From: Klebsiella pneumoniae
Lineage (GTDB): Bacteria; Pseudomonadota; Gammaproteobacteria; Burkholderiales; SG8-39
NCBI GenBank assembly: GCA_945906755.1
Contig: CAMDRJ010000013.1
Coordinates: 1-32,987 of the forward strand
DNA: 32,987 bases
Direction: 5' to 3'
Shown piece by piece: positions 999-25,610 of this stretch. The stretch's first letter is position 1. The number at the start of each line of letters is the position of its first letter. A program made the position numbers and the translations under genes. The notes beneath the pieces were generated by a model. That model had not been told where the DNA came from, did no database searches, and was given only the letters and a program-made list of their open reading frames with translations.

Positions 999-1940
999 AT
1001 GGCCCTTCGCATTCTTGTCGTCTATTACTCCCAAACGGGCCAGCTGCAGCGCATCGCGCGTTCGATGCTCGCGCCGCTTGCCGGGCGTAGCGACGCGCAG
1101 ATCGATTGGCATGAGGTCCGGCCGCAGCCTGCCTATCCGTTCCCCTGGACGTTTCTTTCTTTTCTTGACGCATTCCCCGAGTCGGTCTATCTCGATCCGC
1201 CGCCGGTGAACGCGCCGCCTAGCGAGGCAGACTACGATCTGATCGTGTTGGCCTATCAGGTGTGGTTTCTCGCGCCTTCGTTGCCGATCGTAGGCTTCTT
1301 GCGTCAGGCGCCGCCTGCGTTACTCAAGGGCAAGCGCGTCATCACCGTGATTGGTTGTCGCAATATGTGGACCACCGCGCACCAATCGATGCAGGCCCTT
1401 CTGAACGCGGCTGGTGCGCGCATAACGGACAACGTGGTGTTCATGGATGCAGGTTCGATGTGGTCGACCTTCATCACCACGCCCTGGTGGATGCTGACCG
1501 GCAACAAAGGTCCGCTATTGGGGATCCTGCCTGAGGCGGGCGTGAGCGAGCGCGATATTGCGCGGGCGGCGCGCTTTGGCCGTGCGCTGGCCGATGCGCT
1601 ATCTGAGGTCGCAAATGGCGGAACGGGGCCCTTTCTGCATGGCCTGGCCGCGGTCAAGGCGAGCCCACACGCCATGCTTGCGGAGCGGATCGGCCACCGC
1701 AGTTTTCGAGTGTGGGGCAAGTTGTTTCGGGCGCTTGGCAAGCCCGCCAGCGTCATTCGCAAACCGGTGTTGATTGTCTACGCGCTGTTCCTGATCACGA
1801 TGATCATCACAGTCGTACCGATTACAGGCACAATCGCCTATCTGCTCGCGCGCTTTAGCAGCCGGGTCCGTGAGCGGGCGAAATCTTTGGAGGCCCCCTC
1901 TGGATCATCCGGCGAGCGTTTATCCAGATACGATCAATAG
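999..1940 (+). CDS. darA: DarA-like flavodoxin-fold enzyme (dialkylresorcinol formation)
   Basis: This 313-aa protein has a flavodoxin-like N-terminus: MALRILVVYYSQTGQLQRIA, where SQTGQ is the phosphate-binding loop for FMN. Later strands read YDLIVLAYQVWFLAPSLPI and KRVITVIGCRNMWTTA. A hydrophobic segment near the C-terminus (VLIVYALFLITMIITVVPI) suggests membrane association. Proteins of this shape sit next to a KAS III-like DarB in dialkylresorcinol loci. There DarB is reported to condense two acyl chains to a cyclohexanedione and DarA to aromatise it. The ATG at 999 is preferred over one at 942 because the fold begins directly after it. The next gene starts 34 bases after the stop and is a DarB-like ketosynthase, which supports the assignment. 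Confidence 0.7.
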   Translation: MALRILVVYYSQTGQLQRIARSMLAPLAGRSDAQIDWHEVRPQPAYPFPWTFLSFLDAFPESVYLDPPPVNAPPSEADYDLIVLAYQVWFLAPSLPIVGFLRQAPPALLKGKRVITVIGCRNMWTTAHQSMQALLNAAGARITDNVVFMDAGSMWSTFITTPWWMLTGNKGPLLGILPEAGVSERDIARAARFGRALADALSEVANGGTGPFLHGLAAVKASPHAMLAERIGHRSFRVWGKLFRALGKPASVIRKPVLIVYALFLITMIITVVPITGTIAYLLARFSSRVRERAKSLEAPSGSSGERLSRYDQ

Positions 1941-1974
1941 TAGACTCACCCCCATTCCATTCCGAAGCCTTTTC

Positions 1975-3129
1975 GTGCCGGATCAAGCCTATATCGTGGC
2001 GCTCGGGAAATGTCTTCCCAATGCGCCCGTCGACAACGAGCAAATCGAGGAGGTTCTTGGGACGATTGGCGGCCGGCCGTCCCGTGCCAAGCGCATTACG
2101 CTGCGCAATAACGGCATCAAGACCCGCCACTACGCGATCGATCCGGCCACCGGTCTGCCAACCCATAACAATGCGCAGCTCACCGCGCTTGCGGTGCGCT
2201 CGGCCCTGAAGCGGCTCGACATGCGGGTCCGTGATATCGAGCTGTTGGCGTGCGGCACGTCCGCCCCTGATCAACTAAAGCCCGCGCATGCCAACATGGT
2301 GCATGCCGAATTGGGCGAATCCGCGATGGAAGTGCTCTCGACCGCAGGGGTCTGCTCAGCCGGTTTGGCGGCCTTGAAGTACGCATGGTTCAGCGTCAAA
2401 AGCGGCAGCGTGCGCCGCGCGGTGAGCACCGGCTCTGAGCTTGCATCCAGTTTCATGGTGGGGCGCAATTTCGCAGCTGAGTCCGAGCAAAGCGAGGGCG
2501 ATCTCGAACGCACGCCGCAGCTCGCGTTTGAAAAGGATTTTCTGCGCTGAATGTTGTCAGACGGTGCGGGCGCCGCCTTGATCGCCAATGAGCCGGTCGG
2601 GACCGACATGGCGTTCCGGATCGACTGGATCGATGGCATCTCGCTAGCCCATGAGCTGCCGGTCTGCATGTACAGCGGGGCGATCAAACAACCGGATGGA
2701 CGATTGCGTGGCTGGCGCGAGGCGCCTACGCGGGCGAGTGTGGTCGAAGACCAGTACTTCGCGGTAAAACAAGATGCGCGCCTCCTCGATGAATTGATTC
2801 CCCGCCTGATTTCCGCTGAGACGATCGGCGCGATGGCCAAGAAGCACGGCTTGGCCGCAACCGATGTCGATTGGCTGGTGCCGCATTATTCGTCGCAATA
2901 TTTCCGGCCGGTGCTGGCGCGTTGCCTCGATGGCATCCCCTTTCATATTCCGTATGAACGATGGTTCACCAATCTCACCACGGTGGGCAACGTCGGCTCG
3001 GCCTCGATGTATTTGATGTTGGAAGAATTGATGTACAGCGGCAAGCTCAAACGCGGGCAGCGCGTTCTTTGCTTTGTGCCGGAAAGCGCGCGTTTTTTTG
3101 TCTATTACATGCTGCTCACGGTCGTATAG
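1975..3129 (+). pseudogene. darB: DarB-like ketosynthase III interrupted by an in-frame TGA
   Basis: One continuous frame encodes 384 positions of a KAS III-type ketosynthase, with a TGA at 2548-2550 (position 192). The Cys-His-Asn triad is split across the stop. C127 in STAGVCSAGLAALKYA is upstream; H304 in WLVPHYSSQYF and N339 in TVGNVGSAS are downstream. The stop sits in FEKDFLR-stop-MLSDGAGA, where I expect Trp (TGG) in this family, so one G-to-A change would explain it. An ATG follows the stop directly (TGAATG), so re-initiation of the second half at 2551 is conceivable. The GTG at 1975 is chosen as start because it gives a family-like length; an ATG at 1870 would overlap darA by 71 bases. 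DarB would condense and cyclise two acyl chains. Pseudogene, sequence error and split gene all remain possible. Confidence 0.75.
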
Positions 3130-3135
3130 CACTAC

Positions 3136-3531
3136 ATGCGGGTTAAGGATATTCCGCAGGACCCATCGATTCTCGAAGGCCATCAGCGCGCGTGTTATGC
3201 GCGGGACGAGTCGGGGCGCTACGTCATTGGCACGAGCAGCGGCTGGGAGGTCGAGCGCATCGCCAATCAGCATGCGGTCGATGAAATCAATGCGGGCATC
3301 GCGCAAGTGCTCGCAGATGTTCGCGCCGGCAAAGCTAGCGTGCTCGCCTACCATATGGCGCGATATCACATGAGTCCCGGCCTGTTGGCTGCCAATACCG
3401 GCATTTGGTCATTGCGCATCCGGCGCCATATGCGGCCGCATATTTTCGCGCGGCTGCCTGAAGCGATTCTGCTCCGCTACGCCGATGCGTTTCGCATCGA
3501 TCTCGCGACGCTGGTCAAAGTGCCCGATTAA
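3136..3531 (+). CDS. Unrecognised 131-aa protein of the dar-like locus
   Basis: I do not recognise this family. The protein is soluble-looking, with no signal peptide or membrane segment. Features include MRVKDIPQDPSILEGHQRA at the start, a central helix (AVDEINAGIAQVLADVRAG), a run with several His and Tyr (VLAYHMARYHMSPGLLAANTG), and a basic segment (SLRIRRHMRPHIF) before ILLRYADAFRIDLATLVKV. The C-terminal part resembles a small helical DNA-binding or protein-binding module, but I cannot name it. The ATG is seven bases after the darB stop, and its TAA shares one base with the next ATG (TAATG). It is therefore almost certainly co-translated with the biosynthetic genes and probably serves the same pathway. 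Confidence 0.75.
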   Translation: MRVKDIPQDPSILEGHQRACYARDESGRYVIGTSSGWEVERIANQHAVDEINAGIAQVLADVRAGKASVLAYHMARYHMSPGLLAANTGIWSLRIRRHMRPHIFARLPEAILLRYADAFRIDLATLVKVPD

Positions 3532-4532
3532 TGGCCATTCAGTTCGACCACGTCCACGCCGCACACTGCGAAAGCGGCGCATTCGCCGCACTGCTTCGCC
3601 ATCACGGCTTGACGCTCACCGAGTCGATGGTGTTTGGCATCGGCAGCGGCTTGTTCTTTCTCTTTTTTCCCTATCTGAAGATGTACGGTGCACCGCTCGT
3701 GGCGTATCGCGATGCGCCCGGTCTCATCATCTCGCGTTGTACGCGCCGACTTGGTGTGAAGATGAAGAAGGCGCAATACTCCAATCAAGACGAAGGGATG
3801 CGGGCGCTCGATGCGATGCTCGCGCGTGATATTCCGGTTGGCATGCAGACCGGCGCATTCTGGCTGCCCTATTTTCCGCGCAGCATGCGCTTCCAGTTCA
3901 ATGGCCATCACATCATCGCCTACGGCCGGGACGATGATGATTACCTGATAAGCGACACGGTGTTTGAAGAGGTCGTGCGCTGTCCGTCAGACGATCTGCG
4001 CCGTGCGCGCTTTTCCAAGGGGCCGCTCGCACCAAAGGGCTTTCTGTACCACCTGGAGAGCGTCGATCCGCAGCCGGACCTCGCTAATGCAGTGCGCGAT
4101 GGGATTCGTTCGACGGTCAACCGGATGCTGCGCATTCCGCTGCCCTATATGGGCGTGCGCGGCATCCGTACGCTCGCCAAGGCAATGCGGGGATGGCCGG
4201 CACGCATCGGCGAAGAGAAGGCGCGCTCGTGGCTGGCGAACGTCATTCGCATGCAGGAAGAGATTGGCACCGGCGGCGCCGGGTTTCGCTTCATGTACGC
4301 CGCGTTTCTCGACGAGGCGGCCGCGGTGCTCGACAAACCTGCGTTGCGCGAGCTTTCGGAGCGGCTGACCGAGACGGGCGATCAATGGCGCGAGTTCAGT
4401 GTGCGCGGCGCGCGGGTCATCCGGAATAAAGACAATTCAGCCGACGTGTTCGAGGAGTTGGCCGCGATGCTCGCCGGTTGCGCCGAGCGCGAGCAAAGCA
4501 TCTTTACTGATTTGCGGCGGGTGGTTAGCTAG
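3531..4532 (+). CDS. BtrH-like acyltransferase (BtrH N-terminal domain)
   Basis: This 333-aa protein matches the pattern of BtrH N-terminal domain proteins, which have a papain-like fold. C13 lies in HAAHCESGAFAALLRHHG, the family block ESMVFGIGSGLFF follows, His126/127 lie in FQFNGHHIIAYG and Asp142 in YLISDTVF. These would form a Cys-His-Asp triad. BtrH itself moves an acyl group from an acyl carrier protein onto an aminoglycoside. The remaining ~190 residues are helical and would match the C-terminal domain (DUF4872-like) often joined to it. Next to darAB, a ketosynthase pair and an ACP, the inferred role is transfer of an ACP-bound acyl chain onto the resorcinol or another acceptor. Its TAG stop shares the palindrome CTAG with the stop of the convergent downstream gene. 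Confidence 0.7.
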   Translation: MAIQFDHVHAAHCESGAFAALLRHHGLTLTESMVFGIGSGLFFLFFPYLKMYGAPLVAYRDAPGLIISRCTRRLGVKMKKAQYSNQDEGMRALDAMLARDIPVGMQTGAFWLPYFPRSMRFQFNGHHIIAYGRDDDDYLISDTVFEEVVRCPSDDLRRARFSKGPLAPKGFLYHLESVDPQPDLANAVRDGIRSTVNRMLRIPLPYMGVRGIRTLAKAMRGWPARIGEEKARSWLANVIRMQEEIGTGGAGFRFMYAAFLDEAAAVLDKPALRELSERLTETGDQWREFSVRGARVIRNKDNSADVFEELAAMLAGCAEREQSIFTDLRRVVS

Positions 4533-5485
4533 CGGCCTTGCGGTCCATAGACACGCCAGACAAGGCGACCGATGCGGCCGTACTCATCGCGATTCCAGTG
4601 CAGGAAGGTCGTGGTCGATGGCCATGCTTTTCGGAACGCACCGACCATCGCTAACCCGACCGCGGTGGGGTAGTAGCCGGTGTGCTGCAGGTACGCGTGG
4701 TGTGTCGCCGCGCCGATGTGCTGCTTCAGTTCTGCGATGTCCGCGGCCGTCAACCGAAACCCGGGCATCACGATGATCGGATCGCCCGACACGATGTCGC
4801 GGATCGCGCTCATGCAGTCACGTTGATCCGGGTTCGGTGCGAAAACCGTGGCATCGAGCAGTTCTCCGATCGCGCCGGGCGGATCAGACCCAAGTACCAA
4901 CCATGCGCTGCCCTCGCCGATGCAATGCTCGCGCGCAAACGGAAAATGGCTGAGATAGAACGCACGTGGCACTGCGGCTTCATCGATGGCGCCGACCAAC
5001 GCCGCCTGCATCGCACCTGCCGCAAAATCGTCCGCGACAATGCTCAACGTCTGCTCGAACGATAGTTCTTCGAGTGACAAGGTGAGGTTTCTTGACAACA
5101 GGCCCATCTGCCGCGCCACAAAAAATGCCGCCATGTTGTTGCCAGATGATGCGAATTTCGCCGGCATGATCATCTCGCTCGCAGGCGGCACGATCTGGTG
5201 ATAGAGGGCATCGACGGTGACGATTTCGCCCATGCCGGTGGCGACATACAGCCGCGTTGATGGCACAAGGGCTCGCTTGATTTGCTGCGCTCCCAGCACC
5301 GCCAATTCCACATAGCGCGTTACCAGTCGCGGGGTCGGCATGTTCAGTTGCCGGGCGAGCGCGCGCAGCGAAATTGGGCTGGCATCGGCGGTGAGCGGAA
5401 CGCGGGAAGGGTCGAATAAATCCAACTCAAGATCGCCATTGGGCCCCATGCCGCCCGCCGCATGCAAATAGGCAAGCGGCCTCAT
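4529..5485 (-). CDS. Ketosynthase-like protein without active-site Cys (chain-length-factor-like)
   Basis: This 318-aa protein is a degenerate thiolase-fold ketosynthase. Recognisable parts are the start MRPLAYLHAAGGMGPNGD, the strand TRLYVATGMGEIVTVDALY, the core MIMPAKFASSGNNMAAFFVA and the glycine-containing EGSAWLVLGSD. Where an active ketosynthase has its nucleophile (TxCSS), this protein reads NLTLSLEELSFEQTL around residues 133-147, with no Cys. Such proteins occur as 'beta-ketoacyl synthase chain length factor' in aryl-polyene and type II PKS loci, paired with an active ketosynthase. The ATG at 5485 overlaps the upstream ketosynthase stop by four bases (ATGA). The longer frame up to 5689 would lie inside that gene and is rejected. 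Confidence 0.72.
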   Translation of the reverse strand: MRPLAYLHAAGGMGPNGDLELDLFDPSRVPLTADASPISLRALARQLNMPTPRLVTRYVELAVLGAQQIKRALVPSTRLYVATGMGEIVTVDALYHQIVPPASEMIMPAKFASSGNNMAAFFVARQMGLLSRNLTLSLEELSFEQTLSIVADDFAAGAMQAALVGAIDEAAVPRAFYLSHFPFAREHCIGEGSAWLVLGSDPPGAIGELLDATVFAPNPDQRDCMSAIRDIVSGDPIIVMPGFRLTAADIAELKQHIGAATHHAYLQHTGYYPTAVGLAMVGAFRKAWPSTTTFLHWNRDEYGRIGRLVWRVYGPQGR

Positions 5486-6660
5486 TGGTTGCCAATACCC
5501 ACGACGAGCGATGTGTAGTTGCCGCCGAAGCCAAAGAAATTCAACAGGTATGGGCCGGGACGCGCGGGCAATTCTGTCCGCGATGGTTCGAAGCTGAGTT
5601 CCGGATCCACATTGGCAAAACCGGCTGTTGGTGGCAGAAAGCCCGCCTCGACACAGCCAAGCAGCGCCGCCGTTTCGAGCGTTCCACAAGCACCCAGCGT
5701 GTGCCCAACATAACGCTTGAGTCCGATTACCGGCGTCTCGTGCGAAAGTTCTGTCGCGAATAGAGACCGTATAGCCGCCGCTTCCGCACGATCGCTATCG
5801 ATGCTGCCGGTGCCATGCGCTTTGATAGCGACGATGGCCGATGGGTCCACACCGGCATCCGCAAGGGCTTCCTGCATCACCGCGCGCATCACGGCGCCAT
5901 CGGGACTCGCGCCGGTCAGGTGATGGGTGTCGCACAGATTGGCGCCACCCAGCGTCAGCGCGCCGCCCGCGGCATCGCTTCGTTCGAGAATCAGTGCGCT
6001 ATAGGCCTCTCCAAGCTGCAAGCCGCTACGGTCCCGATCAAACGGCCGACAGCCGGCCGGATCGAGCAACTGCAAGGATTCAAAGCCACCGACTGCGACT
6101 GCACTCACGCCCTCAGCGCCTACGACCAGTGCGCGCTTGACGCGTCCACGATGGATCAGCTCGGATGCGGTCAACAGTGCATTCGCGCTCGATGAACAAC
6201 CGGTGCTCATCGCGAACATCGGTCCTTGCATGCCGAAATGCTGGACGATCACATTGCCGCCCCAGGCCGGACCGCGCAATCGAGCCGGTTCTCGAGTGGC
6301 ATCCGGATGTTGCCAACGCCAGAACAGTTCGGCCGCGGAGGCAAACAGAAACCCACCGGTGCCGATGACCAATGCGCAGTCAGATGCCGTGAGGCATTTC
6401 GCATCGCCACGGTAGGCATGGATCGCCTGCGCAACCGTCGCAATCAGGTGTTCCATACATGCTCGCTCACCCGGCGCATCGTTGCCAGCAGGGATCTTGC
6501 TGATGGTGGGCGCAGGTTGGCTCGGATAGCCGATACCTTCTGCTGGTTGTACCGGGCAGCGTCCGGCGCGAATGCCCGCAACCAACGATGAGAGTCCGGC
6601 ACCGTGCGCCGAGAGTACGCCAACGCCGGCAATACGTACTGCCGGAGCGGTTCTTATCAA
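5482..6660 (-). CDS. FabF-like beta-ketoacyl-ACP synthase
   Basis: This 392-aa protein has the complete KAS I/II Cys-His-His triad: C155 in AMSTGCSSSANAL, H282 in IKAHGTGSIDSD and H320 in RYVGHTLGACG. It also has the C-terminal glycine loop NFFGFGGNYTSLVVG. It would extend an ACP-bound acyl chain by decarboxylative Claisen condensation with malonyl-ACP. It lies between a Cys-less ketosynthase partner and an ACP, each with a four-base overlap. This forms a type II minimal-PKS cassette (ACP-KS-CLF on the minus strand). Primary chain building for aryl polyene or long acyl units is the likely job. No ketoreductase or dehydratase is present in the window, so reduction would rely on enzymes encoded elsewhere. 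Confidence 0.85.
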   Translation of the reverse strand: MIRTAPAVRIAGVGVLSAHGAGLSSLVAGIRAGRCPVQPAEGIGYPSQPAPTISKIPAGNDAPGERACMEHLIATVAQAIHAYRGDAKCLTASDCALVIGTGGFLFASAAELFWRWQHPDATREPARLRGPAWGGNVIVQHFGMQGPMFAMSTGCSSSANALLTASELIHRGRVKRALVVGAEGVSAVAVGGFESLQLLDPAGCRPFDRDRSGLQLGEAYSALILERSDAAGGALTLGGANLCDTHHLTGASPDGAVMRAVMQEALADAGVDPSAIVAIKAHGTGSIDSDRAEAAAIRSLFATELSHETPVIGLKRYVGHTLGACGTLETAALLGCVEAGFLPPTAGFANVDPELSFEPSRTELPARPGPYLLNFFGFGGNYTSLVVGIGNQ

Positions 6661-6941
6661 GATCGTCGCGAGCGGATGAACTCGACCAGCGCGTTGACCG
6701 AACCCATCACGCGCCTGGCATGTTTGCCGTCTTGCACGCGCACACCAAATCGTTTGCTGATCGCCACCGACGACTGCAAACCGTCGAGGGAATCGGCGAT
6801 CCAGGTCGAGTTCTCGCCCATGAGCACGTCGTCATCGCCCATCTCGGACGGGTCGCGTTCGGATTCGAGGGCCGCCAGAATGACTCGTTTTATTTCAAGC
6901 TTGAGTTCGGCGTCACTGGCGGGAATGGCAGGGGCATTCAT
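6657..6941 (-). CDS. Acyl carrier protein
   Basis: This 94-aa acidic helical protein carries the phosphopantetheine attachment motif as D50-S51-L52-D53 (STWIADSLDGLQSSVAISKR). The start is helix-rich (DAELKLEIKRVILAALESE). The ATG at 6941 is chosen; the frame extends to 7007, but the extra N-terminus (KNSTYFVTHPIVFN) looks non-coding. No strong ribosome binding site is visible. The stop overlaps the ketosynthase start by four bases. It should tether the chain elongated by the adjacent KS/CLF pair and deliver it to DarB-like or BtrH-like partners. No phosphopantetheinyl transferase is encoded in the window. Confidence 0.8.
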   Translation of the reverse strand: MNAPAIPASDAELKLEIKRVILAALESERDPSEMGDDDVLMGENSTWIADSLDGLQSSVAISKRFGVRVQDGKHARRVMGSVNALVEFIRSRRS

Positions 6942-7035
6942 GGTTTGATTGAAAACGATCGGGTGCGTAACGAAATAGGTCGAATTTTTACTGCGAAGGC
7001 CTGACATTATGCGGCACCTTGATGCAGGCGCCCTG

Positions 7036-8073
7036 CTATCGCCGTCTGGCCTCCAGGATCGATACCGGCATCGCCGTGGCAGTAACCCGTTCGCAGCGCA
7101 GAGCCGCGGTATCGAGAAGTGCTTCGTATTCTTCTTTCGTGCGCTCGCGCCCGCCGGTAATCAGCAGCATTTCCAGGTCGATGAATTTGCCGTGATCAGG
7201 TTGATTGGCCGGGGCGAGCACATGTTCGATGATCAAAAGCCGCGCTCCAGCATGCATTGCAACGGTCACGCCTTTGAGAATGCGCGCCGCATCGGCATCG
7301 TTCCAATCATGGAGGATCGCCGACATCAAGTAGACATCGCCATCCCGCGGTATCGCACCGAACAGGTCGCCTGCAACGCGCATGCAGCGACCGGTGACGC
7401 CAATTTCCTCCAGTACGCTTGCGGCGCGATCGAGCACCGCAGGCCGGTCAAACAGAATGCCGTGCGCGCGCGCGTTCCCAGCGAGGATGGAGCCCAACAG
7501 GATGCCGGTACCGCCACCGATATCGATGATGGAGCGCGCATGAGTAAAGTCGTAAGCATCGATGATTGCTTCTGCGACATGGCCTGAATAGCCGCTCATC
7601 GCTGCATCAAAAATTTGCGCGGAGGCCGGATGCTTCGCGAGATAGTCGAAGCAGTCCGCCGCGTTCTCGCGCTTGGCGATCGCTGATTGACCGGTCCGTA
7701 TCGCGTGTAACGCGTCGCCCCAACAACCCCAGTGCCAAGTGTCGCCCTGCATCCGCGCGAAGGCACGCAGATTGCCTGGGGTATCGTCCCGCAGCAACAC
7801 GCTCATCGGGGCGAGCGCGAAGCTGCGTGGCGCGACTTCACAGAAGACGCCCAAGCCCGCCAAGGCACGCATCAGCCGATAGAGGGACGGGGCATGCGTA
7901 TGGGTGGTGCGCGCCAGATCATCGATATCGCGGCCTTTACGTCCCAAGTGATCGGCGATGCCAAGTTCGGCGGCGACGTAGATCGCCTGCGATATCCAAT
8001 AGCCACTCACCAGATTCAATAGCTGTCCGGCGGGCGAAGCGGCTTCATCGGCTACGAATTCGTTGCTACTCAC
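7036..8073 (-). CDS. SAM-dependent O-methyltransferase (acetylserotonin/hydroxyneurosporene type)
   Basis: This 345-aa protein belongs to the class I small-molecule O-methyltransferases with an N-terminal winged-helix dimerisation domain (SPAGQLLNLVSGYWISQAIY...THAPSLYRLMRALAG). The SAM-binding glycine loop is SIIDIGGGTGILLGSIL. The putative catalytic His is in YLMSAILHDWNDADA, followed by GARLLIIEHVL. The GTG at 8073 gives a family-typical length; an ATG at 8160 adds 29 residues unlike the family. Neither start has a clear Shine-Dalgarno. It lies 94 bases upstream of the ACP start in the same direction, so it may methylate a phenolic hydroxyl of the resorcinol product. That role is inferred from position and family only. 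Confidence 0.8.
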   Translation of the reverse strand: MSSNEFVADEAASPAGQLLNLVSGYWISQAIYVAAELGIADHLGRKGRDIDDLARTTHTHAPSLYRLMRALAGLGVFCEVAPRSFALAPMSVLLRDDTPGNLRAFARMQGDTWHWGCWGDALHAIRTGQSAIAKRENAADCFDYLAKHPASAQIFDAAMSGYSGHVAEAIIDAYDFTHARSIIDIGGGTGILLGSILAGNARAHGILFDRPAVLDRAASVLEEIGVTGRCMRVAGDLFGAIPRDGDVYLMSAILHDWNDADAARILKGVTVAMHAGARLLIIEHVLAPANQPDHGKFIDLEMLLITGGRERTKEEYEALLDTAALRCERVTATAMPVSILEARRR

Positions 8074-8249
8074 ATTGGCCCGGGGGAAATGGCTTTGCTG
8101 CTGATGCCCGGCATTGTACCGCCGCCGTAGTATCGAAATTTCTCGTATTGAGGCAAGCATGGGGCCGCGTTCGAGGTGTAGAGTTGCCCGGTTGATGACC
8201 TCGATGGCCTGTGAGACGGATGCCGGTCCCCAAACCCGTAACGCCCGCT

Positions 8250-8957
8250 ATGACAAAAAAAAATCGACGCAACTACTACCGAATCCTGTTTGTTCAGCCC
8301 GATGCGCCGGTTGAAGTCATCAAAGCGAGTTACCGCGCATTGATGGGGCCACTCAAGCTTCATCCCGATCTGGGCGGCGATCATGAAGAGGCCGCACTGA
8401 TCAACGAGGCCTACCGCGTCTTGAAAGATCCGGTCCGCCGCGAGGCGTACACACGGACCTACAAGGCGCCGTGGGCGCGCGCCGAATCGATTTCGAGCGC
8501 AAAAACGGCGGACTGGAATCCGGCGGATTGGGTAGCGCTGGAGTGCTGTCCGTTCTGCCGGGCGAGCCTGCCACAGCTTATCGATGCCGAGACCAACTGC
8601 GAGCGTTGTCGCTGTCCGCTGTCCCCGCCAGTCGTCCATCCTACCCGCGGCAAGGAACTCATTGGCAGGCGTGCCACCCCCCGCATTGCGAAGACGGGGC
8701 CGGCCATTCTTTATCGGAGCTGGCAATCGAATCCGACCGCCGTGCGCCTGCGCGATCTATCGATGGGCGGTCTGAGTATCTATGCTGGGACGCCGTTGGC
8801 GGTAGGTCAGGCCTGCCGGGCGGCCGGGGCGCTGGTCGATGCGGTCGTCCAGGTGGTGTCATGCCAGCCGCACCAGGGCGAGTGGATGATCAATGCGCAA
8901 CTGCTTACCGCGCGGTTTGCCAAGCGAGCGGGCGTGTTCGTTTCGGACGCCACCTAG
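8250..8957 (+). CDS. J-domain, zinc-ribbon and PilZ-like fusion protein
   Basis: This 235-aa protein has three parts. Residues 8-70 form a J-domain with the Hsp70-stimulating motif H38-P39-D40 (LKLHPDLGGDHEEAALINEAY). Residues 100-122 hold two Cys pairs (CPFC and CERC), probably a zinc ribbon. Residues about 139-230 look like a PilZ domain, with a basic start (GRRATPR) and the D-x-S-x-x-G motif as DLSMGGLSIYAG; PilZ domains bind cyclic di-GMP. The ATG at 8250 places the J-domain at the N-terminus; an ATG at 8220 is also open. A run of nine A at 8255-8263 sits directly after the start and could allow slippage. The order suggests a co-chaperone whose contacts respond to c-di-GMP, which is inference. 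Confidence 0.72.
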   Translation: MTKKNRRNYYRILFVQPDAPVEVIKASYRALMGPLKLHPDLGGDHEEAALINEAYRVLKDPVRREAYTRTYKAPWARAESISSAKTADWNPADWVALECCPFCRASLPQLIDAETNCERCRCPLSPPVVHPTRGKELIGRRATPRIAKTGPAILYRSWQSNPTAVRLRDLSMGGLSIYAGTPLAVGQACRAAGALVDAVVQVVSCQPHQGEWMINAQLLTARFAKRAGVFVSDAT

Positions 8958-9082: not shown

Positions 9083-10459
9083 ATGAAGAAGATCCTCCTC
9101 GTCAATCCCGCGTACAAGAACAGCCTGCATTCGAACATCAAAGTGCTGGCTATTCCACCGTTGAGCCTCACCATGATCGCGCGCTATACCCCCGATCATT
9201 ACGAGGTCGAGATCGTTGACGAGGCGGTCCAGAATTTGGATTTCAATGTGCGCGCCGATATCGTCGGCATTACTTGCATGACGCCGCTGGCGCCGCGCGC
9301 TTATGAAATCGCGCAGCGTTTCCGGGAGCGCGGGGCCTTGGTGGTGATGGGCGGGATCCATGCCTCCTATATGACCGACGAAGCGTTGCGCTATGTCGAT
9401 GTGGTGGTTGCTGGTGAAGCAGAGAATCTGTGGCCGCAGTTCCTGCGCGATTACGAAGCTGGCAAATTCCAGAAAGTCTATCGGGCGACCGAGCAGCCTG
9501 ATATCGAAAATCTGCCTGCGCCACGTCGCGATCTCCTAGCGGACAAGTACTTTGTCGAGACGGTGTAGACCGGCCGCGGTTGCCCGATCAATTGCAATTT
9601 CTGCTCCGTGACGGCGTTCAATGGTGCCCGCTATCGCCTGCGTAGCACCGACAGCGTGATGAACGAAATCAATGCGATCAAATCCAAGCGCATTTTTATC
9701 GTTGACGACAATATCGTCGGATCGGGCATGAAATACATCCGGCGCGCCAAGGATTTGTTCGATCGTCTGGAAGGCAGCGGCAAGGAATGGGGTGCGCAGA
9801 CCTGCCTCAACATCGTCGAGCATGACGATCTCATGCAATCGGCCAGGCGCGGCGGTTGCAAAGCGCTCTTGATCGGCTTTGAGTCGCTCGATGCCGATAC
9901 GCTTGAGTCGATGCACAAGCCCGTCAATCTGCGACCGGCCACGCGCAATTTCAGCGACGCGATCAAGAAGATCCATGATCAAGGCATCGCGATCATCGGC
10001 TGCTTCATTTTCGGCACCGACACGCAAGACAAGGACGTCTTCAAGCGCACCGTCGATTTCGCGCTAGCGAATCGGATCGACGCGGTGCAGATGACGCTCT
10101 CCACGCCCCTGCCGGGCACCGCGCTCTATCGTCAGATGGCCGCTGAGAAGCGCCTGCTATTGACGAACTATCCGAACGATTGGAGCCACTACAACATTGT
10201 CGAGCCGGTCTATCAGATGAAGAACTTTACGCCGGAGGAGGCCTACCAGGGCCTGCTGAAGGCCTATGAGGAAGTTTCTTCATTTACGACATCGCTGAAG
10301 CGCGGCGTTCGCACCTTCATGAACACGAAGAGCGTATTTAGCACCGGTATTTCGTTCTCCTGGAACTATCAGGCGTATCGAACGATTCGCGATAATCCGA
10401 CGCCGCTGGTGGTTGGGGCGCAGAGCCCTTTGCGCCAAGTGGAGGAAGTGAGCGCGTAG
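9083..10459 (+). pseudogene. B12-binding radical SAM protein interrupted by an in-frame TAG
   Basis: One frame of 458 positions encodes a cobalamin-binding-like domain (residues 1-~145: MKKILLVNPAYKN, ADIVGITCMTPLAPRAYEIA, ALVVMGGIHASYM). It is followed by a radical SAM barrel with the 4Fe-4S motif C167-x3-C171-x2-C174 (TGRGCPINCNFCSVT) and IFIVDDNIVG, GFESLD and FIFGTDTQDKD. TAG at 9566-9568 (position 162) stops the frame five codons before the first cluster Cys. I expect Gln there (VQTGRGCP), so a CAG-to-TAG change explains it. A GTG at 9608 could restart translation but would lose the cluster motif. The best family match is radical SAM proteins with a C-terminal DUF4070-like region. The substrate is unknown. 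A link to the neighbouring dar-like locus is possible but unproven. Confidence 0.78.
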
Positions 10460-15830: not shown

Positions 15831-15847
15831 TCATGATCCTCAATGCG

Positions 15848-15862
15848 GCACCGTACAGGTGC
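15848..15862. promoter_or_regulatory. NtrC-like enhancer site 2 (perfect dyad)
   Basis: GCACC-GTACA-GGTGC is a perfect match to GCACC-N5-GGTGC. Its centre lies about 110 bp upstream of the start site predicted from the sigma-54 promoter, within the range usual for NtrC enhancers. Confidence 0.7.
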
Positions 15863-15939
15863 GTCGACGCATCGGCGCCCTTTCGTTTTTTCGATTGGTT
15901 TATCCAAGCATTCATGGAGTTATCGACTAATTCGCGGCA

Positions 15940-15955
15940 TGGCACGACGCTTGCA
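15940..15955 (+). promoter_or_regulatory. Sigma-54 (RpoN) -24/-12 promoter of the urt-ure operon
   Basis: TGGCACG-ACGC-TTGCA matches the sigma-54 consensus TGGCACG-N4-TTGCA at every stated position. The -24 GG is at 15941-15942 and the -12 GC at 15953-15954. Transcription would start near 15966, about 60 bases before the urtA ATG. With the upstream dyads this predicts activation by phosphorylated NtrC under nitrogen limitation. Confidence 0.85.
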
Positions 15956-16025
15956 CTCTTGGTGCATGAAGCGCCGCAACGAAAGGCGTTCTCTTCATTT
16001 CACTTCCTCGAAAGGAGCAGTCTCG

Positions 16026-17309
16026 ATGAAACGTCGCATGTTAATCAAAGCGGCCACGTTGGCCACCGCGATCGCCGCATTGGGCTTCGGCGCCGCCGCA
16101 GTTCAGGCGCAGCAAAAGACCGTCAAGGTAGGCATTCTGCATTCGCTGTCAGGCACCATGGCGATCAGCGAAACCGTGTTGAAGGATACGGCGCTGATGG
16201 CGATCGAAGAGATCAATGCCGCAGGTGGCGTGCTCGGTGCAAAGATCGAACCGGTAGTGGTGGATCCGGCCTCCAACTGGCCGCTCTTCGCCGAGAAAGC
16301 ACGTCAGCTTCTCACGCAAGACAAGGTTGCCGCCGTATTTGGCTGCTGGACCTCCGTTTCACGCAAATCAGTGCTGCCGGTGTTCGAGGAATTGAACGGT
16401 CTTTTGTTCTACCCCGTGCAGTATGAGGGCGAAGAACTCTCGAAGAACGTGTTCTACACCGGTGCAGCGCCGAATCAGCAAGCGATTCCGGCGGTCGAAT
16501 ACCTGATGAGCAAGGATGGTGGTGGCGCCAAGCGCTTTGTGTTGCTTGGCACCGACTACGTTTATCCGCGCACCACGAATAAGATCTTGCGCGCGTTCCT
16601 CAAATCGAAAGGCGTCGCCGACAAAGATATCGACGAGGTCTACACGCCGTTCGGCCATGCTGATTATCAAACGATCGTTGCCAACGTCAAGAAGTTCTCC
16701 ACCGGCGGCAAGACCGCGGTGATCTCCACGATCAACGGCGATTCCAATGTGCCGTTCTATAAGGAACTTGGCAATCAAGGCCTGAAGGCAACCGATGTGC
16801 CGGTGGTGGCGTTCTCGGTCGGTGAGGAAGAACTGCGCGGCGTCGACACCAAACCGCTCGTTGGGCATCTGGCTGCATGGAACTACTTCATGTCGCTCAA
16901 GAACCCGGCGAACGATGCCTTCCGCAACAAGTGGGCCAACTACGCGAAGGTGAAGAAACTCGCCGGTGCCGACAAGCCGCTCACGAACGATCCGATGGAA
17001 GCCACGTATATCGGCATCTACATGTGGAAACAAGCGGTCGAGAAAGCGAAGACCTTCGACATCGACAAAGTGATTGCAGCAACCGGTGGGCAAACCTTTG
17101 TCGCGCCCTCCGGATTCACCGTGAAGATGGACGAGAAAAACCACCATCTGCACAAGCCGGTGTTCATTGGCGAAGTGAAAGCGGACGGTCAGTTCAATGT
17201 CGTGTGGAAGACCGCCGGCCCGATCAAGGCCAATCCGTGGAGCAAGTTCATCGCCGGTAACGAAACCAAGAAGGATGAGCCGGTGGTGACGGCTGCGGTG
17301 AAGAAGTAG
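16026..17309 (+). CDS. urtA: Urea ABC transporter, substrate-binding protein
   Basis: This 427-aa periplasmic binding protein has a clear signal peptide (MKRRMLIKAATLATAIAALG, then small residues to AVQAQ; likely cut after AQA). The mature part starts KTVKVGILHSLSGTMAISET and contains the UrtA-typical VFGCWTSVSRKSVLPVFEE, FYPVQYEGEELSKNVFYTG and GDSNVPFYKELG. It captures urea in the periplasm and hands it to UrtBC. The ATG at 16026 is supported by AAAGGAG at 16011-16017 and by the signal peptide; the frame is open further upstream but through promoter DNA. It is the first gene behind the sigma-54 promoter. UrtA proteins commonly have this length. Confidence 0.95.
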   Translation: MKRRMLIKAATLATAIAALGFGAAAVQAQQKTVKVGILHSLSGTMAISETVLKDTALMAIEEINAAGGVLGAKIEPVVVDPASNWPLFAEKARQLLTQDKVAAVFGCWTSVSRKSVLPVFEELNGLLFYPVQYEGEELSKNVFYTGAAPNQQAIPAVEYLMSKDGGGAKRFVLLGTDYVYPRTTNKILRAFLKSKGVADKDIDEVYTPFGHADYQTIVANVKKFSTGGKTAVISTINGDSNVPFYKELGNQGLKATDVPVVAFSVGEEELRGVDTKPLVGHLAAWNYFMSLKNPANDAFRNKWANYAKVKKLAGADKPLTNDPMEATYIGIYMWKQAVEKAKTFDIDKVIAATGGQTFVAPSGFTVKMDEKNHHLHKPVFIGEVKADGQFNVVWKTAGPIKANPWSKFIAGNETKKDEPVVTAAVKK

Positions 17310-17324
17310 TTTTCCGCTGCGCGG

Positions 17325-17447
17325 GTGATCGGTGAAAGGTGAAGGGTGTGTAGACAGTGAAGGGTGAAAAGTGAAAGGTGATTCCTACAACTTCAACCTT
17401 TTCACCCGCGCTGCCCTGCCACCTTTCACCTCTCACTTTTCATATCT
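17325..17447. repeat. GTGAAAG-type short repeats and large inverted repeat between urtA and urtB
   Basis: The urtA-urtB gap is built from variants of GGTGAAA (for example GGTGAAAGGTGAAGGGTG near 17331). It contains an imperfect inverted repeat, with its left arm at 17357-17380 and right arm at 17420-17443, which share TGAAAAGTGA/GTGAAAGGTG patterns. A related scrap lies at 27019-27032 after ureG. A stem here could attenuate or stabilise the transcript between the abundant binding protein and the membrane components. Confidence 0.55.
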
Positions 17448-17463
17448 CACCGTAGTAAACTTC

Positions 17464-19083
17464 ATGTCAACCCAATCCATTGCTCGCCGCGCCGTCCTAC
17501 TTGTCGTCATCGCATTCGCGCTGCTGGCACGCGGCGCGGCGGCAATGGATACCAGCGCGGTTCAAGCGTTGGCGTTTGGCGATAGCGATGAACGTTCCGC
17601 TGCGATCGCAAAGCTGGTTGAAACCGCCGATCCACGTGCGATCGCGCTGCTCGAAGCATTGGGCAGCGGCGATTTGCAAACGGCCGGCAAGCGCGTATTG
17701 ATCATCAAGGGCAAGGACGCGTTCGATGCCGAGACGGGCGAACGCGTCTCGCCGCTTCCGGCGGCCAGGGAAGATGTGGTCGCCAACAACCGGGTGCGCC
17801 GCGAAATTGCCGGCGCATTGGGCGTACTGAAATTACTGTCGACGGAACGTACCGTTCGGCTGGGGGCGGCCAAGGCGCTCGCGCTCAGCACCGACGATGC
17901 GCCGCTGCCAAGCGTCAATAAGGCGCTTGAACGGGAGGCCGACGATGAGATCAAAGCCATTCTCGTATCGATCATTGCCAGTGCGGGTCTGAAGAGCGAA
18001 ATCGCCGAAGAGCGCATCGCCGCGGTCCGGGCGCTGGAGCATTCAAGCAATCCGCAGACGCGAACGTTGCTGGTCCAGCTACTCGAGAGGAAATCCGATG
18101 GCACCTATGCCGAACCCGATGAATCTGTACGTGGCGCAGCGAGCCTTAGCCTGCGCGCGGTAGAGAATCGGCTGGCCTGGGGTGAACGCGCCGGGCTCAT
18201 GTTTACGAGCCTTAGTCTTGGCAGCGTGCTGCTCCTCGCCGCATTGGGCCTTGCGATCACCTACGGTCTCATGGGCGTCATCAACATGGCGCATGGCGAA
18301 CTGATGATGATCGGCGCCTATGCCACCTATGTGGTGCAGAACGTCTTCAAGGTCTATGCACCGGAGTGGTTCGCTTGGTACCTCTTGTTGGCGGTGCCGA
18401 TCGCATTCTTTGTCTCGGCGTTGGTCGGCATGGTGCTGGAGCGCACGGTCATCCGGCATCTGTATGGGCGTCCGCTGGAGACGCTGCTTGCAACCTGGGG
18501 CATCAGCCTGCTTCTGATTCAAGCCGTGCGTACGCTGTTTGGTGCGCAGAATGTGCAGGTCGAAAATCCCTCGTGGATGTCAGGCGGCATAGCGCTTCTA
18601 TCGAATGTCGTGTTGCCCTGGAACCGCGTGTTTATCGTGGTATTCGCAGTGCTGGTATTGGTAGCGATCTGGCTTTTGCTCACCCGCACGCGGCTTGGCT
18701 TGTTCGTGCGTGGTGTCACGCAGAATCGCCCGATGGCCAGTTGCGTTGGTGTGGCGACCGCGCGCGTCGATACGCTCGCGTTCGGCGTTGGCTCAGGCAT
18801 CGCGGGCTTGGGCGGCTGTGCGCTATCGCAGATCGGCAATGTTGGCCCCGATCTTGGGCAGTCCTATATCGTTGACTCTTTCATGGTGGTGGTGCTGGGT
18901 GGGGTGGGGCAGCTCGCCGGCACCGTTTATGCGGCGCTTGGCCTGGGTTTCGTCAACAAACTGATCGAGTCATGGTCCGGCGCGGTGATCGCAAAGATCG
19001 CGGTGTTGGTGTTCATCATCATCTTCATCCAGAAACGACCGCAGGGGCTCTTCGCCTTCAAGGGCCGCGCGCAAGAGGCCTGA
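17464..19083 (+). CDS. urtB: Urea ABC transporter, permease
   Basis: This 539-aa protein begins with a signal-like segment (RAVLLVVIAFALLARGAAA). A long ~200-residue helical, HEAT-like extracytoplasmic region follows (PRAIALLEALGSGDLQTAG, RTVRLGAAKALALSTDDAP). The LivH-type permease starts at MFTSLSLGSVLLLAALGLAI with LMGVINMAHGELMMIGAYAT and ends FIQKRPQGLFAFKGRA. The long N-terminal extension is normal for UrtB. The ATG at 17464 is taken because the upstream frame crosses the repeat region. It forms the membrane channel with UrtC and lies three bases ahead of it. Confidence 0.93.
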   Translation: MSTQSIARRAVLLVVIAFALLARGAAAMDTSAVQALAFGDSDERSAAIAKLVETADPRAIALLEALGSGDLQTAGKRVLIIKGKDAFDAETGERVSPLPAAREDVVANNRVRREIAGALGVLKLLSTERTVRLGAAKALALSTDDAPLPSVNKALEREADDEIKAILVSIIASAGLKSEIAEERIAAVRALEHSSNPQTRTLLVQLLERKSDGTYAEPDESVRGAASLSLRAVENRLAWGERAGLMFTSLSLGSVLLLAALGLAITYGLMGVINMAHGELMMIGAYATYVVQNVFKVYAPEWFAWYLLLAVPIAFFVSALVGMVLERTVIRHLYGRPLETLLATWGISLLLIQAVRTLFGAQNVQVENPSWMSGGIALLSNVVLPWNRVFIVVFAVLVLVAIWLLLTRTRLGLFVRGVTQNRPMASCVGVATARVDTLAFGVGSGIAGLGGCALSQIGNVGPDLGQSYIVDSFMVVVLGGVGQLAGTVYAALGLGFVNKLIESWSGAVIAKIAVLVFIIIFIQKRPQGLFAFKGRAQEA

Positions 19084-19086
19084 GCG

Positions 19087-20262
19087 ATGACGGCGCTCCT
19101 TACCAGGTTGTATGGCACGCGCGGTTGGACAGCGATCGGCGTTTGCGTCGTTCTCCTATGCGGTGTGATGCCGCTCGCCAATCTCGTCGCAACACCCGGT
19201 AGCGCCTTCCACGTATCGGATTATTTCGTGACGCTGTCAGGCAAGATCATGTGCTACGCAATGGTCGCGGTGGCGCTCGATCTCGTCTGGGGATACGCCG
19301 GCATCTTGAGTCTTGGGCATGGCCTCTTCTTCGCGCTGGGCGGCTATGCGATGGGCATGTATCTGATGCGCTCGATCGGCACTGATGGCCATTACCGCAC
19401 CGAGCTGCCGGATTTCATGGTCTTTCTCGATTGGAAGGAATTGCCCTGGCACTGGTGGAATACCGATCAATTCTGGTGGGCGATGATTCTGGTGGTGGCG
19501 GTGCCCGGCGTGCTGGCCTATGTGTTCGGTTACTTTGCGTTCCGCTCGCGCATCAAAGGCGTGTATTTCTCGATCATTACGCAGGCGCTAACCTACGCCG
19601 CGATGCTGTTGTTCTTCCGCAATGAGACCGGCTTTGGCGGCAACAACGGCTTTACCGATTTCAAGCGCCTGGTCGGATTTGCGATCGCGCGCCCGGAAAC
19701 GCGCATGGCGCTATTCGTTCTCACTGGCCTGGCGTTGATTGCAACGCTGCTCATCGCTCGCGCCATCGTCACTTCACGCTTTGGTCGCGTGCTCACTGCG
19801 ATTCGCGACGCTGAATCGCGCGTCATGTTCTGCGGCTATGACACCAGCCGCTACAAGCTGTTTGTATGGACCCTCTCGGCCATGCTCTGCGGCATCGCGG
19901 GTGCGCTATACGTACCGCAGGTGGGCATTATCAACCCAAGCGAGATGTCGCCCGCCAATTCGATCGAGATCGCAATCTGGGTCGCGGTCGGCGGACGCGG
20001 CACGCTGATCGGCGCGATCCTCGGCGCAGGACTCGTGAATGGCGCCAAAAGCGTCTTCACCGTCCTCATGCCGGAGTACTGGCTCTATGTGCTTGGATTG
20101 TTGTTTATCGTCGTTACGCTTTATCTGCCCAATGGCATCGTCGGCTGGGTGACGCAAATGATGCGCAGGCGAAGGGGCGATTCGCGAGCGGCCGCAACGC
20201 CGGAGAAAGAATCCGGACGGCCGCAGCAAACCCCACCCGCAGCCGCAAAGCCCGCGCGATGA
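19087..20262 (+). CDS. urtC: Urea ABC transporter, permease
   Basis: This 391-aa LivM-type permease has several hydrophobic segments. Family blocks include ALDLVWGYAGILSLGHGLFF, SRIKGVYFSIITQALTYAAM, NETGFGGNNGFTDFK, AIRDAESRVMFCGYDTSRYK and ISELGAGLVNGAKS-like text near the end (AILGAGLVNGAKSVF). UrtC usually has this length and these motifs. The C-terminus is a Pro/Ala-rich cytoplasmic tail (RPQQTPPAAAKPAR). Its stop overlaps the urtD start by four bases (ATGA). It pairs with UrtB to form the pore. Confidence 0.93.
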   Translation: MTALLTRLYGTRGWTAIGVCVVLLCGVMPLANLVATPGSAFHVSDYFVTLSGKIMCYAMVAVALDLVWGYAGILSLGHGLFFALGGYAMGMYLMRSIGTDGHYRTELPDFMVFLDWKELPWHWWNTDQFWWAMILVVAVPGVLAYVFGYFAFRSRIKGVYFSIITQALTYAAMLLFFRNETGFGGNNGFTDFKRLVGFAIARPETRMALFVLTGLALIATLLIARAIVTSRFGRVLTAIRDAESRVMFCGYDTSRYKLFVWTLSAMLCGIAGALYVPQVGIINPSEMSPANSIEIAIWVAVGGRGTLIGAILGAGLVNGAKSVFTVLMPEYWLYVLGLLFIVVTLYLPNGIVGWVTQMMRRRRGDSRAAATPEKESGRPQQTPPAAAKPAR

Positions 20263-21086
20263 GCACCGCCTTGCATTCGTCTGAAGGCAGCGGCGCACCG
20301 CTCGATGCGAGTTTTGCGCGTATCGCCACGCCGGGTCTGGATACTTCGCATGGTGCGGTCCTCTATCTGGAAGACATCACCGTGAGCTTCGATGGGTTTC
20401 GCGCCCTCAACAAGCTCTCGCTCATGATCGAAACCGGCGAGTTGCGTTGTGTCATCGGGCCTAATGGCGCGGGCAAGACGACGATGATGGATGTCATCAC
20501 CGGGCGCACCCGTGCGGATTCCGGCAGCGCCTTCTTTGGTCAAACGATCGATCTAAGGCGTTTCAATGAGGCCGAGATCGCCAAAGCCGGCATCGGCCGC
20601 AAATTTCAGAAGCCGACGATTTTCGAGCACCACACGGTATTTGAGAATCTCGAACTCGCGATGAAATCCGACAAGCGCGTGCGCCGAACCTTGTTCGCAC
20701 GGCTGACCGGTGACGAGCGCTCGCGCATCGATGAAACGCTCACGCTGATTCGTTTGAGTGACAGCCGTCATCGCCCCGCAGGTCTTCTCTCGCATGGCCA
20801 AAAGCAATGGCTGGAAATCGGCATGCTGCTCATCCAGGAACCTAAGCTCCTCCTTCTCGATGAACCGGTGGCCGGGATGACGGATGACGAAACCGAGCGA
20901 ACCGCCGAACTTTTTCTGTCATTGGCCGGCAAACACTCGCTCGTCGTGGTCGAACACGACATGGCGTTTGTCGCATCGATTGCACGCAAGGTCACGGTGC
21001 TGCATGAAGGAAGCGTGCTAGCCGAAGGTCCGCTTGCGCAAGTGCAGAACGATGAACGCGTGATTGAAGTCTATCTTGGGCGGTAA
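20259..21086 (+). CDS. urtD: Urea ABC transporter, ATPase
   Basis: This 275-aa LivG-type ATPase has Walker A GPNGAGKTTMMD, Q-loop region IGRKFQKPTIFEHHTVFENL, signature LLSHGQKQWLEIGMLL, Walker B LLLLDEPVAGMTDDE and switch His in VVVEHDMAFV. The signature reads LSHGQ rather than LSGGQ, which is common in UrtD. The ATG at 20259 overlaps urtC; an upstream extension in frame to 19866 lies inside urtC and is rejected. Residues 1-35 form a short non-conserved leader before the ATPase core (VLYLEDITVSFDGFRAL). Confidence 0.94.
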   Translation: MSTALHSSEGSGAPLDASFARIATPGLDTSHGAVLYLEDITVSFDGFRALNKLSLMIETGELRCVIGPNGAGKTTMMDVITGRTRADSGSAFFGQTIDLRRFNEAEIAKAGIGRKFQKPTIFEHHTVFENLELAMKSDKRVRRTLFARLTGDERSRIDETLTLIRLSDSRHRPAGLLSHGQKQWLEIGMLLIQEPKLLLLDEPVAGMTDDETERTAELFLSLAGKHSLVVVEHDMAFVASIARKVTVLHEGSVLAEGPLAQVQNDERVIEVYLGR

Positions 21087-21093
21087 GGACGCT

Positions 21094-21786
21094 ATGCTAA
21101 CCATCACCGGTCTCAACCAGTACTACGGTGGCAGTCACATTCTGCGCAACTTGAGCTTCGACGTACCGCATGGTTCGGTTACGACCTTGCTCGGGCGCAA
21201 CGGCGTCGGTAAGACCACGCTGCTTAAGACGCTGATGGGATTGGTGGCGCCGCGCACCGGGTCGATCCGGTTCGGCGAGCATGATCTGACGACGCTCCCA
21301 TCGCATGAAAGAGTGCGGGCCGGCATTGGCTACGTGCCGCAGGGAAGAGAGATCTTTCCGCGCCTTACCGTCGAAGAGAACTTACGCATGGGCCTGGCGG
21401 TGCGGGGACGTCATGCGCGCATTCCGGAGCGGATCTACGAGATGTTTCCGGTGCTCAAACAGATGCTCGGCCGCCGTGGTGGCGATCTGTCTGGCGGTCA
21501 GCAGCAGCAACTGACGATCGGTCGCGCTTTGGCCGCCGAACCGAAAGTCCTCATTCTCGATGAGCCCACCGAAGGGATTCAGCCATCGATCATCAAGGAT
21601 ATCGAGCGCGTTATTCGCAGTCTTGCAGGGAGTGGCGAGATGGCGATCCTGCTGGTTGAACAGTATTACGATTTTGCGCGCGCGCTGGCCGATCATTACA
21701 TCGTCATGGAGCGTGGCGAGATCGTGCGGCACGGGCGGGGCGCCACGATGGATGCGGACGGAGTGCGCGAATTGATGAAGGTATGA
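21094..21786 (+). CDS. urtE: Urea ABC transporter, ATPase
   Basis: This 230-aa LivF-type ATPase has Walker A GRNGVGKTTLLK, Q-loop YVPQGREIFPRLTVEENL, signature LSGGQQQQLTIGRAL, Walker B VLILDEPTEGIQPS and switch His replaced by Gln in LLVEQYYDF, as is normal for LivF/UrtE. The ATG at 21094 has AAGGA just upstream and starts eight bases after urtD ends; an upstream start at 21064 would overlap urtD. It completes the importer. ureD follows seven bases later, so transport and hydrolysis genes are in one transcription unit. Confidence 0.94.
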   Translation: MLTITGLNQYYGGSHILRNLSFDVPHGSVTTLLGRNGVGKTTLLKTLMGLVAPRTGSIRFGEHDLTTLPSHERVRAGIGYVPQGREIFPRLTVEENLRMGLAVRGRHARIPERIYEMFPVLKQMLGRRGGDLSGGQQQQLTIGRALAAEPKVLILDEPTEGIQPSIIKDIERVIRSLAGSGEMAILLVEQYYDFARALADHYIVMERGEIVRHGRGATMDADGVRELMKV

Positions 21787-21793
21787 TGATTGC

Positions 21794-22636: not shown

Positions 22637-22645
22637 GGTAATGCT

Positions 22646-22948: not shown

Positions 22949-22959
22949 GGGCCGTCGCT

Positions 22960-24998: not shown

Positions 24999-25003
24999 CC
25001 ACC

Positions 25004-25579: not shown

Positions 25580-25584
25580 TGTCT

Positions 25585-25610
25585 TCCGAATTCGCGACAG
25601 CGAATTCGGA
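25585..25610. repeat. Perfect 11-bp inverted repeat after ureE
   Basis: TCCGAATTCGC-GACA-GCGAATTCGGA forms a perfect 11-base stem with a 4-base loop five bases after the ureE stop. A second, imperfect hairpin (CCCTCGCCCC...GGGAGAGAGGGGG, about 25618-25645) follows. Neither is followed by a T-tract. They may act as a processing or stability element or a dispersed repeat inside the ure operon. Confidence 0.6.

Follow-up and report, generated by a model that had tools for sequence, protein, structure and literature searches.

A dialkylresorcinol gene locus with an interrupted darB, read as the dar half of an aryl-polyene pigment pathway

Layout and family membership of the locus

The window analyzed here is the whole of a 32,987-nucleotide stretch (contig CAMDRJ010000013.1 of assembly GCA_945906755.1, positions 1 to 32,987, forward strand) from a metagenome-assembled genome (MAG). 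Its subject is a dialkylresorcinol (dar) gene set spanning 999-8073, which a preliminary description, made from the sequence alone, had drawn as eight genes in two converging sets; all eight frames were indeed found at those places. The plus-strand set (DarA, DarB, a 131-aa protein, and a BtrH-like protein) runs to 4532 and the minus-strand set (O-methyltransferase [OMT], acyl carrier protein [ACP], ketosynthase [KS], and a Cys-less KS partner) reaches down to 4529, so that the two share a four-base overlap. With a probability of about 0.85, we read this locus as encoding the dialkylresorcinol part of a pathway for yellow-orange aryl-polyene pigments of the arcuflavin/flexirubin type, whose polyene half would lie elsewhere in the genome. 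The features, with gene names of the Azoarcus cluster assigned by place, are as follows.

999..1940, plus strand: DarA-like protein, putative dialkylresorcinol (DAR) aromatase; open frame of 313 aa, named from homology and its position beside DarB
1975..3129, plus strand: DarB, an StlD/DarB-family ketosynthase, interrupted (NF005293; StlD, 5gk0)
2548..2550, plus strand: in-frame TGA in darB, codon 192 of 384
3136..3531, plus strand: 131-aa protein, NCBIfam DarG family (NF053536); by place, darD of Azoarcus
3531..4532, plus strand: BtrH-like acyltransferase, NCBIfam DarH_acyl (NF053550); by place, darE of Azoarcus
4529..5485, minus strand: Cys-less KS partner, chain-length-factor-like by profile and predicted fold; by place, darK of Azoarcus
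5482..6657, minus strand: KS (Pfam ketoacyl-synt, alignment); by place, darJ
6657..6941, minus strand: ACP (weak NF006617 match, place, motif); by place, darC
6942..7035, no strand: 94-base gap, the site of ABC-2 permease and ATPase genes in loci L019 and L020
7036..8073, minus strand: OMT (Methyltransf_2)
9083..10459, plus strand: B12-binding radical SAM enzyme, interrupted by an in-frame TAG at 9566-9568; possible tailoring gene

The window proteins were assigned to families by Pfam and NCBIfam scans, in which DarB was scored with its stop read through. DarB scored 520.5 bits against the cut-off of 450 for NF005293, and 454.7 bits, below the cut-off of 550, for the stricter NF053539 (resorcinol_DarB). 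It also matched the StlD ketosynthase (PDB 5gk0) at an E value of 6.9e-120, with aligned Cys, His, and Asn residues that we take to be catalytic. The 131-aa protein exceeded the DarG-family cut-off (NF053536, 141.5 bits versus 70) and fell below that of the flexirubin-only family NF053545 (120.1 bits versus 170). The BtrH-like protein, which carries BtrH_N and DUF4872, is a "BtrH-related acyltransferase DarH" (NF053550, 443.5 bits versus a cut-off of 300), and a sequence search of the PDB gave no match to it at an E value of 0.01. DarA was named from homology and place, its homologues adjoining DarB in 27 of the 42 BtrH loci surveyed below. The kinship to flexirubin systems that had been suggested for these dar genes is upheld. 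The DarB, DarG, and DarH matches over cut-off, the conserved neighbors, and the catalytic residues found in DarB and the KS speak for the pathway assignment.

On the minus strand, the KS belongs to Pfam ketoacyl-synt and has the triad C154, H281, and H319 in the alignment. Neither its partner nor the ACP had a Pfam match, and the partner had no NCBIfam match either. The partner aligned with a KS profile at an hhalign probability of 96.8%, with Glu140 occupying the Cys position. Its predicted model (mean pLDDT of 77.0, the first 36 residues being poor) had as its top structural match the ishigamide chain length factor (CLF) 6kxd_B (Z of 25.5, 298 residues aligned, rmsd of 4.5), which was tied with other ketosynthases. 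The ACP scored 29.9 bits for NF006617, below the cut-off of 70; a DSL serine motif was seen by eye, and ACP homologues adjoin the KS in loci L019 to L021. The OMT (Methyltransf_2, 124.7 bits) has the same place in L019 (53%) and L020 (55%).

The model of the 131-aa protein (pLDDT of 90.9) contains an Xre/lambda-repressor-like helix-turn-helix at residues 67 to 131, as judged from the best match (VIA Z of 10.8, 63 residues aligned, rmsd of 2.2). For a helical domain, such a Z is suggestive only, and HppE, an enzyme, shares this fold. With Foldseek alone, the model had no match at an E value of 0.001, and a sequence profile of the protein found no relative in the PDB below an E value of 0.2. The predicted domain is a first structural lead for this protein.

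Conservation of the gene set and loss of the ABC pair

When the BtrH-like protein was used to scan genome contigs, 42 loci emerged, whose gene content was scored with profiles seeded by the window proteins or, for the ABC pair, by L020. Here the 131-aa and BtrH-like proteins are called DarD and DarE, and the nine usual genes are those for DarA, DarB, DarD, DarE, the ABC pair, ACP, KS, and partner. DarA, DarB, DarD, and DarE occurred together in 27 of the 42 loci, and 26 of these 27 carried all nine usual genes, the exception (L056) being cut by a contig end. The DarD gene adjoins the DarE gene in 41 of the 42; the remaining one, L060, is a fragment. Among genomes related to the window, 7 of 101, including its own, had a BtrH match, which added six further loci with DarA, DarB, DarD, and DarE (L013 to L018). 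All nine usual genes were found in L013, L014, and L018; L016 is cut by a contig end, and L017 has an ACP and a KS but lacks the ABC pair, and its partner match is weak (39 bits).

Not all loci hold the full set. Ten of them (L040, L042, L043, L045, L047, L048, L049, L053, L054, and L055) have DarD and DarE with no DarA or DarB in the DNA examined, little upstream DNA being covered in L054; nine are titled Bacteroidota and one (L048) Azovibrio. L033 has DarD, DarE, and the ABC pair. Two loci titled Deltaproteobacteria, L022 and L058, carry DarD, DarE, ACP, KS, and partner and no DarA or DarB; L022 has the ABC pair, and L058 is cut after DarE. L044 has DarB, DarD, DarE, the ABC pair, and ACP, with no DarA or KS. 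The convergent layout ending in an OMT is common to the loci of palsa_1005 (L019) and RBC024 (L020), both betaproteobacterial MAGs, and L021, L046, and L052 are convergent without an OMT.

The two strands could in principle hold unrelated neighbors. The convergent orientation fits such a view, as does L015, which has the plus-strand set without a KS set nearby. However, in 30 of the 31 untruncated loci other than the window, from Pseudomonadota to Bacteroidota, the dar genes have a KS nearby, and the partner is clear in 29. Chance adjacency therefore has next to no probability, and we take it as refuted; the darAB half and the KS/CLF/ACP half do co-occur in other genomes. The same survey removes the novelty first attached to their pairing, which is the usual and already-known set: the Azoarcus BH72 cluster already has it in Table 1 of PMC3949708, and it is collinear in Chitinophaga loci. 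A new combination of darAB with a type II polyketide synthase cassette is thereby ruled out.

Besides the interrupted darB and the rare radical SAM gene described below, the window stands apart by its missing ABC pair, which 30 of the 31 other untruncated loci have, the one exception being L017. In L019 and L020, ABC-2 permease and ATPase genes stand between the ACP and OMT genes, where the window has 94 bases. The earlier view of the locus as a reduced relative of flexirubin systems therefore holds as far as reduction goes, but what was lost is the ABC pair rather than a ketoreductase or dehydratase. No ketoreductase, dehydratase, or phosphopantetheinyl transferase was seen among the genes of 999-8073, as had been said, and the locus is not self-contained, a partial polyene half lying on contigs C272 and C133.

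The polyene half, the interrupted genes, and the radical SAM gene

The polyene genes of the window's own genome (G000, 91.9% complete, 381 contigs) were sought with the exporter and AMP-ligase of RBC024 as queries. On C272 lie an AMP-ligase (45%) and an initial portion of the exporter (39%), whose remainder (39%) is at the end of C133. Other C272 frames are related to the dehydratase-like and acyltransferase-like genes of RBC024 and to the frame that precedes its exporter; the label LolA-like for this last frame comes from its place alone. At the start of the contig, an ACP end was seen by eye. These matches overturned the idea that the polyene half is wholly absent from the genome. A polyene KS over the NF006618 cut-off was found in 17 of 22 genomes searched, 21 of which have a BtrH locus; the five without are G000, the same-genus genome G001 (79% complete), G045, G113, and G114. 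The polyene CLF family PF13723 was found in 11 of 13 genomes searched, and not in G000 or G001. PF22818 served poorly as a polyene marker, with 2 of 22 genomes scoring above its cut-off. A hit on C35 was ruled out as a polyene KS: its neighbors, in a fatty-acid-type operon, are FabG- and FabH-like frames, and its score resembles that of FabF in other genomes.

Several points weigh against the assignment of the locus to such a pigment pathway. First, with no Pfam and no NCBIfam match, DarA belongs to no named family. Second, the darB frame is broken by a TGA at codon 192 of 384. Third, the locus lacks the ABC pair: a permease gave no match anywhere in the window, and an ATPase none ahead of position 19842. 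The closest permease of the genome, on contig C23, is 38% identical by one aligner and 35% by another. Fourth, the assembly has no polyene KS over the cut-off and no PF13723 CLF, genes that may be absent from the assembly or lost. Finally, L015 has the dar genes and the ABC pair with no KS, partner, or ACP nearby.

Relocation of the ABC pair to C23 was thought unlikely, because the identity there is 35 to 40%, compared to 53 to 55% between L019 and L020. No permease match was found in G083, the genome of L017, or in G060, whose locus is cut. The C23 region itself (L122:4766-11114) holds a halogenase-like gene, an AMP-ligase, a 451-aa protein without a Pfam family, and an ABC-2 pair, and is possibly a second biosynthetic locus.

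The darB stop falls after the aligned Cys and before the His and Asn. At its position, the other distinct loci have Trp (31) or Phe (3) (n = 34; 41 rows less 7 duplicates), and DarB is one open segment in 33 of these 34, that of L057 being split in two. DarB is therefore not dead in all relatives; had it been, this would have spoken against the grouping. The radical SAM gene, which starts 1 kb past the OMT, has its TAG where its relative has Gln. The interrupted darB and the missing ABC pair lead us to infer either decay of the pathway or, for the stop, an error in the consensus.

To see such stops against their background, coding potential was scanned for in-gene stops in 448,358 bases of the genome (about one-tenth, including the window, and in part contigs chosen on other grounds). 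The scan gave 73 crude candidates, most of which were discarded on visual inspection as antisense frames or junctions between genes; this is not a calibrated rate. Of seven candidates inspected more closely, six of which were scanned for Pfam domains, four clear in-gene stops outside the window were kept: in L096, L102, and L098 the stop falls inside a single Pfam domain, and in L116 between two GMC domains. L101 and L093 were dropped as gene ends. One stop each was also flagged in matches on C370 and C98, and neither is among those kept by the scan. Because of the four further clear stops in the sample, in-gene stops appear to be a background of this MAG, whether by decay or error; two in one cluster are, in our judgment, only mildly unusual. 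In a UGSC-family gene on contig C18 (L108:10580-12298), an in-frame TGA at 10955 lies within Pfam UGSC (86.1 bits); this is probably a selenoprotein with the TGA encoding selenocysteine.

That the locus is a recent pseudogene cluster, with pigment loss under way in the genus, is close to an even bet, if just short of one. Two genes are interrupted and the ABC pair is missing within one cluster, and neither a polyene KS over the cut-off nor the CLF was found in G000 or G001. Moreover, G001 has no BtrH match, and its polyene exporter (L117:7438-9609, contig C13) is in pieces, one match having two in-frame TGA codons. On the other hand, G000 and G001 are 91.9% and 79% complete, and seven of the nine genes, with the radical SAM gene counted in, remain open. 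The MAG has in-gene stops elsewhere too, and split frames are also present in L018, L057, and L059. If the stops are real, the genus offers a natural case of pigment loss.

Alternatively, both stops may be consensus or assembly errors in a complete and working pathway, a serious possibility that we nonetheless place under even odds. The four other in-gene stops in 448 kb of the same MAG could reflect a general source of error, and the remaining seven frames of the set are open. The rest of both interrupted frames is well kept, but a recent real nonsense change would leave the same picture, and error cannot account for the ABC pair, which is missing as DNA. Read-through of the TGA and TAG by recoding or suppression would agree with the well-kept residues on either side of the stops. 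It is very unlikely, however, as two different stop codons are involved, at Trp and Gln sites, and both serve as normal ends in this cluster: TAG terminates darA, darB, and darE, and TGA terminates the KS gene.

The radical SAM protein was below the cut-off for all 25 NCBIfam families among the matches listed, the best being BchE, HpnR, and HpnJ. Of 100 related genomes, one has a close relative (G083, 72% identity; G075 and G056 have matches at 35 to 37%), as does 1 of 398 other members of the order (G083 again, at an E value of 1e-100); in 368 other members of the class, none was found (at an E value of 1e-110). For the genomes of the 42 loci, the search covered the DNA around each locus, where L022, L044, and L058 carry other radical SAM genes (21 to 38% where tblastn matched). 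Plasmid searches returned 114 records for the radical SAM protein and 58 for the BtrH-like protein, every one below 60% identity. The gene of G083 (L017:284-1624) lies at the contig start, about 110 bases before the polyene KS and on the same strand, in a cluster of polyene and dar genes. The radical SAM proteins of the window and G083 are 72% identical, compared to 34 to 48% for their dar proteins; this gene may therefore have had its own history or evolved slowly.

Both carriers of this enzyme, the window and G083, lack the ABC pair, and the pair is present in 30 of 30 untruncated dar loci without the enzyme in the DNA examined. Because of this pattern, a rare polyene-dialkylresorcinol sub-type can be imagined in which the ABC pair was given up and a cobalamin-dependent radical SAM tailoring enzyme was gained, although we regard it as rather improbable. 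If it exists, the product would bear a modification on an unactivated carbon of either the polyene or the resorcinol, and dar products would have a possible radical SAM tailoring step. We recognized no report of a radical SAM gene within a dar cluster in the literature searched, which is no proof of absence.

Among other genes of the window, an antitoxin/PIN-domain toxin-like pair (301-923, named by eye) precedes darA; in Azoarcus, PHD and PilT genes lie within the dar cluster. A DnaJ-domain protein (8211-8957; Pfam, 44.6 bits), whose C-terminal half has no family match, lies between the OMT and radical SAM genes, and urea ABC transporter and urease-like genes, named by eye, form one run at 15843-27000.

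Proposed pathway and comparison with known systems

In dialkylresorcinol formation, DarB forms a cyclohexanedione and DarA aromatizes it. The steps that we infer for the window proteins follow this scheme. DarB would join two acyl units into the cyclohexanedione, which DarA would convert to the dialkylresorcinol. The ACP, KS, and partner (as a CLF) probably prepare an acyl unit bound to an ACP, lengthen it, or pass it on. The BtrH-like protein probably transfers an aryl-polyene acyl group carried by an ACP to one of the resorcinol hydroxyls, and methylation of the polyene's aryl head is the probable task of the OMT. BtrH-like transfer, as had been proposed, is kept as a candidate for the acylation step. 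For the OMT, the resorcinol had been put forward as the substrate. By analogy, the aryl head is more likely, because arcuflavin has a methionine-derived methyl and the polyene ring of flexirubin has a methyl as well (PMC3949708 and PMC3992019). The KS, partner, ACP, and 131-aa protein are near-fixed neighbors of darAB across phyla, which makes their roles testable.

According to these two papers, a dialkylresorcinol was obtained in earlier work both when the Azoarcus dar proteins were expressed and when darA and darB from Chitinophaga pinensis were. The names cyclase and aromatase in Table 1 of PMC3949708 match the split between DarB and DarA. The DAR of Azoarcus BH72 is predicted there to be esterified to a polyene; for the ester step of flexirubin, PMC3992019 proposes the ligase-like FlxW instead.

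Four known systems can be set beside the window. First, StlD (5gk0) is of the same family as the window's DarB, whose gene is interrupted. Second, the Azoarcus BH72 (arcuflavin) cluster, as listed in Table 1 of PMC3949708, has darA, darB, darD (conserved hypothetical), darE (BtrH-like), darF and darI (ABC), darC (ACP), darJ (KS), and darK, with PHD and PilT genes inside. It shares darA, darB, darD, darE, darC, darJ, and darK with the window, these one-to-one matches resting on gene order and annotation rather than sequence comparison, and it also has its polyene genes at separate loci. Unlike Azoarcus, going by that table, the window has no ABC pair and has an OMT, a nearby radical SAM gene, and an interrupted darB. 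Third, the flexirubin-type operon of Chitinophaga (L026, L027, L028, and L032) runs DarA-B-D-E-ABC-ABC-ACP-KS-partner on one strand as a single run, whereas the window is convergent and lacks the ABC pair; the proteins are 23 to 48% identical where tblastn matched. Finally, the loci of palsa_1005 (L019) and RBC024 (L020) have the same convergence, a terminal OMT, and proteins 42 to 67% identical to those of the window. They differ from it in having the ABC pair, an open darB, and, in both genomes, a polyene KS over the cut-off.

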